The notes under the pieces: generated by a model
Seen by the model: the letters and a program-made list of their open reading frames with translations, nothing else
What the model was told of the DNA's origin: nothing
Databases searched by the model: none
Assembly: GCA_015493525.1 (NCBI GenBank)
Contig: WGCY01000038.1
Location: 1 to 64,000, forward strand
Length of the DNA: 64,000 nucleotides
Direction of reading: 5' to 3'
From: Bacteroidales bacterium
GTDB lineage: Bacteria; Bacteroidota; Bacteroidia; Bacteroidales; F082
Shown: piece after piece, positions 7,492 to 7,828 of the stretch
How the letters are laid out: each line of letters opens with the position of its first letter
How positions within the stretch are numbered: the first letter of the stretch is position 1
Program-made: the position numbers and the translations under genes

Positions 7492-7828
7492 GAAGTTGTT
7501 TAAAGTTAACTCATTATTTCTTAGTGTTATATAAATCGCATCAGCAAATCCTTATTCCTTTTCTACTATTTGACGAATTATGGTAGAGATGTTCAAAAAG
7601 ATAGTTTTGAAGGTTCACGCTAAAAGCGCAAAGGTTCAGCAAAGTACGCAAATCATTTTGCTATAATGATTTAAGTTTTGCGTTTTCTGCGCTAAAGTTT
7701 TGCGCACTTTGCGTAAAATCCCTTTTTGAACAGCCTCACAAACAAAAACAACAATTAAATTTAAGATGTAATTCATTCTTTTAACGTATCTTATCAAGGA
7801 CAAGATATCCTGGACTTTAAACAACTTC
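7492..7828. repeat. MITE-like inverted-repeat element, copy A (full length)
   Basis: Starts GAAGTTGTTTAAAGTT and ends ACTTTAAACAACTTC (terminal inverted repeats); internal TTCACGCTAAAAGCGCAAAGG...GCGCACTTTGCGTAAAATCC shared with copies at 28864 and 47470. Confidence 0.85.

Follow-up and report, generated by a model that had tools for sequence, protein, structure and literature searches.

The closest described systems are the IS5-family-related miniature inverted-repeat transposable elements (MITEs) of Porphyromonas gingivalis (BrickBuilt, MITE464/PgRS, MITE239, and MITE700), which are intergenic elements of another member of the Bacteroidota. Their terminal inverted repeats (TIRs) match those of resident IS5-family elements, their interiors are unrelated to the insertion sequence (IS), and a MITE-within-a-MITE locus has been reported (PMC4596501). 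MITECca01, a MITE of Cardinium, is about 240 bp long, also comes from the Bacteroidota, and has little in common with its parental IS beyond the ends; a remnant in which the 3' end of the transposase is retained is described as well (PMC9769881). In the BOX/RUP/SPRITE clusters of Streptococcus pneumoniae, which involve other families and another phylum, small intergenic repeats are likewise nested in one another (PMC10969869). IS5-type MITEs, nested MITEs, and ends-only likeness to an IS are therefore already known, in Bacteroidota (PMC4596501 and PMC9769881) or elsewhere (PMC10969869). Here, we describe a 337-bp element located between porV and porU, at positions 7492 to 7828 of a 64,000-nucleotide stretch (the window) of contig WGCY01000038.1 from a Bacteroidales bacterium (GCA_015493525.1). 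This element is a MITE of composite structure, in which an IS5-type outer part, the chassis, encloses a palindromic GCAAA element that is older and distinct from it.

The resulting family is new and well supported, and of an ordinary kind; exchange of the core is its one less usual feature. It differs from the P. gingivalis MITEs in its ends, since the TIRs of the latter begin with GAGACC or ACGTCA, and in its target-site duplications (TSDs), which are variable there and consistently 3 bp long here. BrickBuilt has a tandem-repeat interior, in contrast to the palindromic core of our element (PMC4596501). The parent of MITECca01 is an IS982 rather than an IS5 element, and the portion of that source considered here contains no description of core exchange (PMC9769881).

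A composite MITE between porV and porU

The 337-bp stretch is a mobile element. It is short (MITEs measure 50 to 500 bp) and has no transposase gene, it is bounded by TIRs, its family duplicates 3 bp of the target, copies lie at different sites, relatives have the site without the insertion, and an autonomous IS with matching ends resides in the same genome. A first-pass annotation of the window had proposed a MITE-like element here, and its boundaries proved right to the base. The perfect TIRs that it described are real over 15 bp (15/15 complementary) and not over the claimed 16, the last base being unpaired. The lack of coding capacity was confirmed, the longest open stretch being 63 codons from stop to stop, as was the palindromic GCAAA/TTTGC-rich core, which folds as RNA far better than shuffled sequences (z = -5.4). 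Folded as DNA, the whole element likewise does far better than its shuffles (z = -3.8), and its G+C content is 32%, versus 45% in the whole window. All five exact matches to GAAGTTGTTTAAA in the window lie at element ends; with up to two mismatches, there are 11 occurrences versus 4.3 expected. The parts of the element are as follows.

7492..7828, no strand: composite MITE, 337 bp (TIR pair, 3-bp flank duplication with one mismatch, other copies, relatives without the insertion)
7492..7506, + strand: left TIR, GAAGTTGTTTAAAGT, 100% complementary to its partner
7814..7828, - strand: right TIR, pairing with the left TIR
7489..7491, no strand: left target-site copy, GTT (family-wide 3-bp TSD)
7829..7831, no strand: right target-site copy, GCT, one mismatch (family-wide 3-bp TSD)
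7492..7573, no strand: chassis left arm, shared with the sister-species MITE at 79 to 93% identity (query 1-82 matches, alignment)
7574..7584, no strand: CGAATTATGGT, probable remnant, judging from the alignment, of the core still found in sister-species copies
7586..7737, no strand: inner palindromic GCAAA element, 152 bp, with ends GAGATGTTCAAAAAG..CTTTTTGAACAGCCTC (genome copies)
7740..7828, no strand: chassis right arm, shared with the sister-species MITE at 81 to 89% identity (query 249-337 matches)

A genome-wide search with the 337-bp element returned 34 match rows, most of which covered only query positions 95-254; the element can thus be divided into a chassis on the outside and a core within it. 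The first-pass annotation had called the family high-copy. This holds for the GCAAA core, with about 30 matches genome-wide, some 25 of them without the chassis and in both orientations, but not for the TIR-bounded chassis, which occupies only about 10 loci in 2.85 Mb. Conversely, copies of 337 to 360 bp in G001, G003, and G011 (G000 is the window's own genome; other G numbers are relatives' genomes) match query positions 1-82 and 249-337 and not the middle. Their chassis encloses another palindrome, about as long as the GCAAA core and essentially confined to chassis interiors.

The GCAAA element has imperfect ends of its own (GAGGNTGTTCAAAAAG), and its stand-alone copies are mostly intergenic (18/20, according to a rough gene call). 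Since some copies occupy orthologous sites in sister species (L016/L058, L010/L070, and L022/L077), the inner element must be old. The left chassis-core junction is common to the copies at 7492, 28866, and 47470, together with a CGAATTATGG-like stretch that is probably left over from the earlier core. The right junction is common to those at 7492 and 47470. These common junctions point to one core capture, followed by transposition of the composite.

Copies of the element and target-site duplications

The first-pass annotation had noted about five traces of the family in 64 kb. All are real, at 7492, 15881, 28866, 38898, and 47470, the one at 15881 representing a second subfamily with the same TIR and another interior. 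Besides the copy at 7492, they are as follows.

47470..47738, - strand: second, internally deleted composite copy of 269 bp, flanked by ATA/AGA (genome search, alignment)
28866..29061, + strand: third composite copy, right end lost (genome search, alignment)
38898..38951, - strand: remnant of the chassis right arm, 54 bp (genome search)
15881..15914, + strand: single TIR of a related subfamily, with an interior like that of G000:C36:1902-2076 (genome search, alignment)

Further copies lie elsewhere in the genome; thus, the element is not unique to this site. TIR pairs in the window, in the rest of the genome, and in four sister species bound elements of 166 to 360 bp and one of 924 bp. Among 15 TIR-bounded copies from these five genomes, the flanks agree exactly over 3 bp in 8, with a chance expectation of about 1e-9, and the per-base agreement at this length is 0.93, 0.73, and 0.80. 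At lengths of 4 to 9, no exact match occurs. The TSDs read for the MITEs are ATA, ATT, AGT, ATC, and AAA.

Matches were found in 10 of the 149 genomes of the taxonomic family, 6 of which belong to the same genus (own genome included). Chassis matches also occur in G050 and G072, which both belong to one other genus; the matches in the remaining two genomes are weak and short. Within the window's own genome, 5 of the approximately 10 chassis loci fall in the 77.5-kb contig that contains the window, which makes up 2.7% of the assembly (binomial P of about 3e-6, the locus count being approximate). Either local hopping or a bias of the assembly would account for this clustering, part of which could stem from repeats lost at the ends of other contigs.

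Two additional observations concern the copies. A 175-bp element (L139 153-327; G000:C36:1902-2076) combines perfect chassis TIRs with a third core type, CCTCTTGGGAGGAGTGTAGAGGTGGGTT, and both the window's 15881 trace and G000:C10:19215 look like fragments of it. At the 38898 remnant, the TGA stop (38897-38899) of a 1393-amino-acid frame (34718-38899) consists of the last flanking T and the first two TIR bases, GA. The same arrangement is seen at the porU end in G010 (L094, near 1255). When a target ends in T, a TIR starting with GA supplies TGA in one frame.

A resident IS5-family element with the same ends

The search for a transposase with matching TIRs, proposed in the first-pass annotation, led to one intact 924-bp IS at G000:C49:69637-70560, whose 16-bp ends are the same as the MITE TIR and whose flanks are ATT/ATT. 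Its transposase matches NF033580 (NCBIfam, IS5 family) with 138 bits versus a curated cutoff of 110, contains the Pfam domains DUF4096 and DDE, and is the only DDE_Tnp_1 match over the cutoff in the genome; the IS is therefore assigned to the IS5 family with a DDE transposase. A short ATG-started frame would join the long frame via a -1 shift at A AAA AAG, yielding 267 amino acids; use of this shift is predicted from the slip site. In G010, a sister species, deletion has left derivatives of 346 and 339 bp in which both TIRs and the last 77 to 78 residues of the transposase frame survive, and they show a route from such an IS to a nonautonomous form.

As general background, ISL2-group IS5 elements are about 0.8 to 1 kb long and produce 3-bp TSDs of the form ANT. 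The IS here measures 924 bp and has ATT/ATT flanks, and the TSDs of the MITEs fit ANN better than strict ANT. We found no published TSD rule for the ISL2 group in the open literature. The closest described counterparts of the IS are ISCaa2 and ISCaa3 of Amoebophilus asiaticus, ISL2-group IS5 elements of 914 to 916 bp with TIRs of about 20 bp and a 275-amino-acid transposase produced via a -1 frameshift (PMC3196728); the corresponding values here are 924 bp, 16 bp, and 267 amino acids, with a -1 slip site. Unlike our IS, ISCaa2 and ISCaa3 showed no direct repeats (PMC3196728).

The porU-porV spacer

The insertion lies between two secretion genes on the same strand. The best named matches to the PorV protein come from metagenome-assembled genomes of uncultured Bacteroidales.

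6179..7393, - strand: porV (PF19572), with ATG at 7393 (profile match; start codon by comparison with relatives)
7848..11738, - strand: porU (Peptidase_C25; profile match)
7421..7428, - strand: promoter-like motif TAGATTTG upstream of porV, between that gene and the insertion (no other TAnnTTTG in the spacer's coding strand; block conserved in relatives)

The porU-porV spacer measures 454 bp in the window's genome and about 80 to 120 bp in 7 of the 9 same-genus genomes read, all 9 of which lack the 337-bp element at this position. Sites without the insertion thus exist, and the spacer is not conserved. TAnnTTTG is a promoter type of the Bacteroidota. In our spacer, this motif lies about 28 bp before the porV ATG within a block (TTCGTTAGATTTGCACAC) that is conserved in the genus and located between the insertion and porV, so the probable promoter of porV was left in place. 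For P. gingivalis, where 75 bp separate porU from porV, independent transcription of the two genes was predicted (PMC5445135). The insertion is most likely near-neutral for porV, and the MITE probably does little to the neighboring genes.

The spacer of G010 contains a MITE of independent origin, whose ends are similar and whose interior differs (L094, about 1255-1450; ends AACATGTTTAAAGT/ACTTTAAACAAGTT, core CCCCTCC/GGAGGGG..GGGTGGGTT). In G005, the spacer is about 280 bp long (L090, about 1240-1520) and includes an extra stretch unrelated to the MITE.

Alternative explanations and proposed history

We considered whether the spacer might instead encode a conserved structured RNA, or a cis-acting hairpin controlling porV. 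The strong fold of the core would suit such a role, as would the conservation of the inner element among copies, some of them at orthologous sites in sister species. Nevertheless, the porU-porV spacer of relatives lacks the element, no Rfam family reaches threshold, and compensatory changes among 23 distinct copies do not exceed those in shuffles, with 88.7% of cells paired versus 88.8% in shuffles and 5 pairs changed on both sides versus 6.2. Nothing in the GCAAA palindrome therefore supports a conserved RNA; it behaves as a decaying inverted repeat, and we regard an RNA function as very improbable. The first-pass annotation had suggested that the element could insulate porU from porV or modify their coexpression, and one may ask whether it acts as an insulator or terminator and has been retained for that reason. 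The insertion does lengthen a spacer of about 115 bp by 337 bp that include a long hairpin, and G010 has its own related MITE there; yet repeated insertion is also expected in any permissive intergenic gap. The conserved TAnnTTTG motif stands on the porV side, the + strand, which is antisense to porU and porV, has the sole terminator-like match, and independent transcription was predicted for the two P. gingivalis genes. The suggestion is thus unsupported, and retention for an effect on expression seems unlikely.

A MITE of single origin, whose palindromic core was always its own, would account for the perfect ends and for the two junctions common to two copies. This model is contradicted by the finding that core and chassis are distributed independently: in this genome, about 25 occurrences of the core have no chassis around them, and the chassis has a different core in G001, G003, and G011; we give it almost no credence. 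The composite MITE moved by an IS5-type transposase is left as the reading that we favor, and several observations weigh against it. The flanks of the 7492 copy, GTT/GCT, are one mismatch short of a TSD; a single mismatch, here and at 47470 (ATA/AGA), is expected of older insertions. The three composite copies diverge by at least 7% and carry deletions, so that this genome shows no fresh activity of the family. Homology between the MITE and the 924-bp IS is confined to the terminal 16 to 20 bp, which demonstrates compatibility with this IS and not descent from it. Finally, no TSD was found for the inner element, so that any mode of spread of its own would be conjectural; at the empty sites of two inner copies in sister species, the flanks match, not as one uninterrupted place, and no TSD is readable.

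With these points taken into account, we hold it to be highly probable that the element is a nonautonomous IS5-type MITE with an exchanged GCAAA core, moved by a C49-type IS5 transposase, and that it entered the porU-porV spacer once this lineage had separated from the sampled sister species. Mobilization in trans by the 924-bp IS is very probable. We infer the following order of events. An IS5-family DDE transposase like that of G000:C49:69637-70560 would recognize GAAGTTGTTTAAAGTT ends and move the MITE, duplicating 3 bp of the target. The ancestor of the MITE probably had a different palindromic core, one that sister species retain, and in this lineage an older, independently dispersed GCAAA palindromic element would have replaced most of that core. 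Transposing as one block, the composite would then have reached at least three sites of this contig, and one of the copies would have entered the porU-porV spacer after divergence from the sampled sister species, upstream of the probable porV promoter.

The TSDs, the partner IS, and the sites without insertion make this locus an example of a small mobile element, from an uncultured Bacteroidales genus, whose interior changed while its ends were kept. Such core exchange between repeat families is easily overlooked when repeats are annotated by consensus only. In addition, the porU-porV spacer tolerates insertions, its sole conserved element being the promoter-like block of porV. A broader model, in which one set of IS5-type ends repeatedly captures unrelated palindromic cores (GCAAA, AACGAATTA, and CCTCC/GGAGG) and in which small palindromic repeat families of the Bacteroidota owe their dispersal to such capture instead of to a dedicated transposase, is in our view doubtful. 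As a reason for capture, a hairpin core would perhaps aid transposition or be tolerated in transcripts.

Repeat arrays around GxxExxY genes

Two candidates related to the inner element were rejected. All GARGYTGTYYAAA sites in the genome were listed and eight contexts were inspected for an autonomous partner; none pairs around a transposase. A GxxExxY (PF13366) element as the source of the GCAAA core was also discarded, as the genome's three GxxExxY genes are flanked by other repeat arrays and not by this core and its ends. A brief literature search turned up no publication on GxxExxY genes in short-repeat arrays. Each of the three genes (L055, L056, and L057) lies inside a different array (CACTAAGTCGCACAAAG, CGCAAAGACGCGAAAACGC, and GCCACGAATTCACGAAT), and together, genes and arrays look like a mobile unit.
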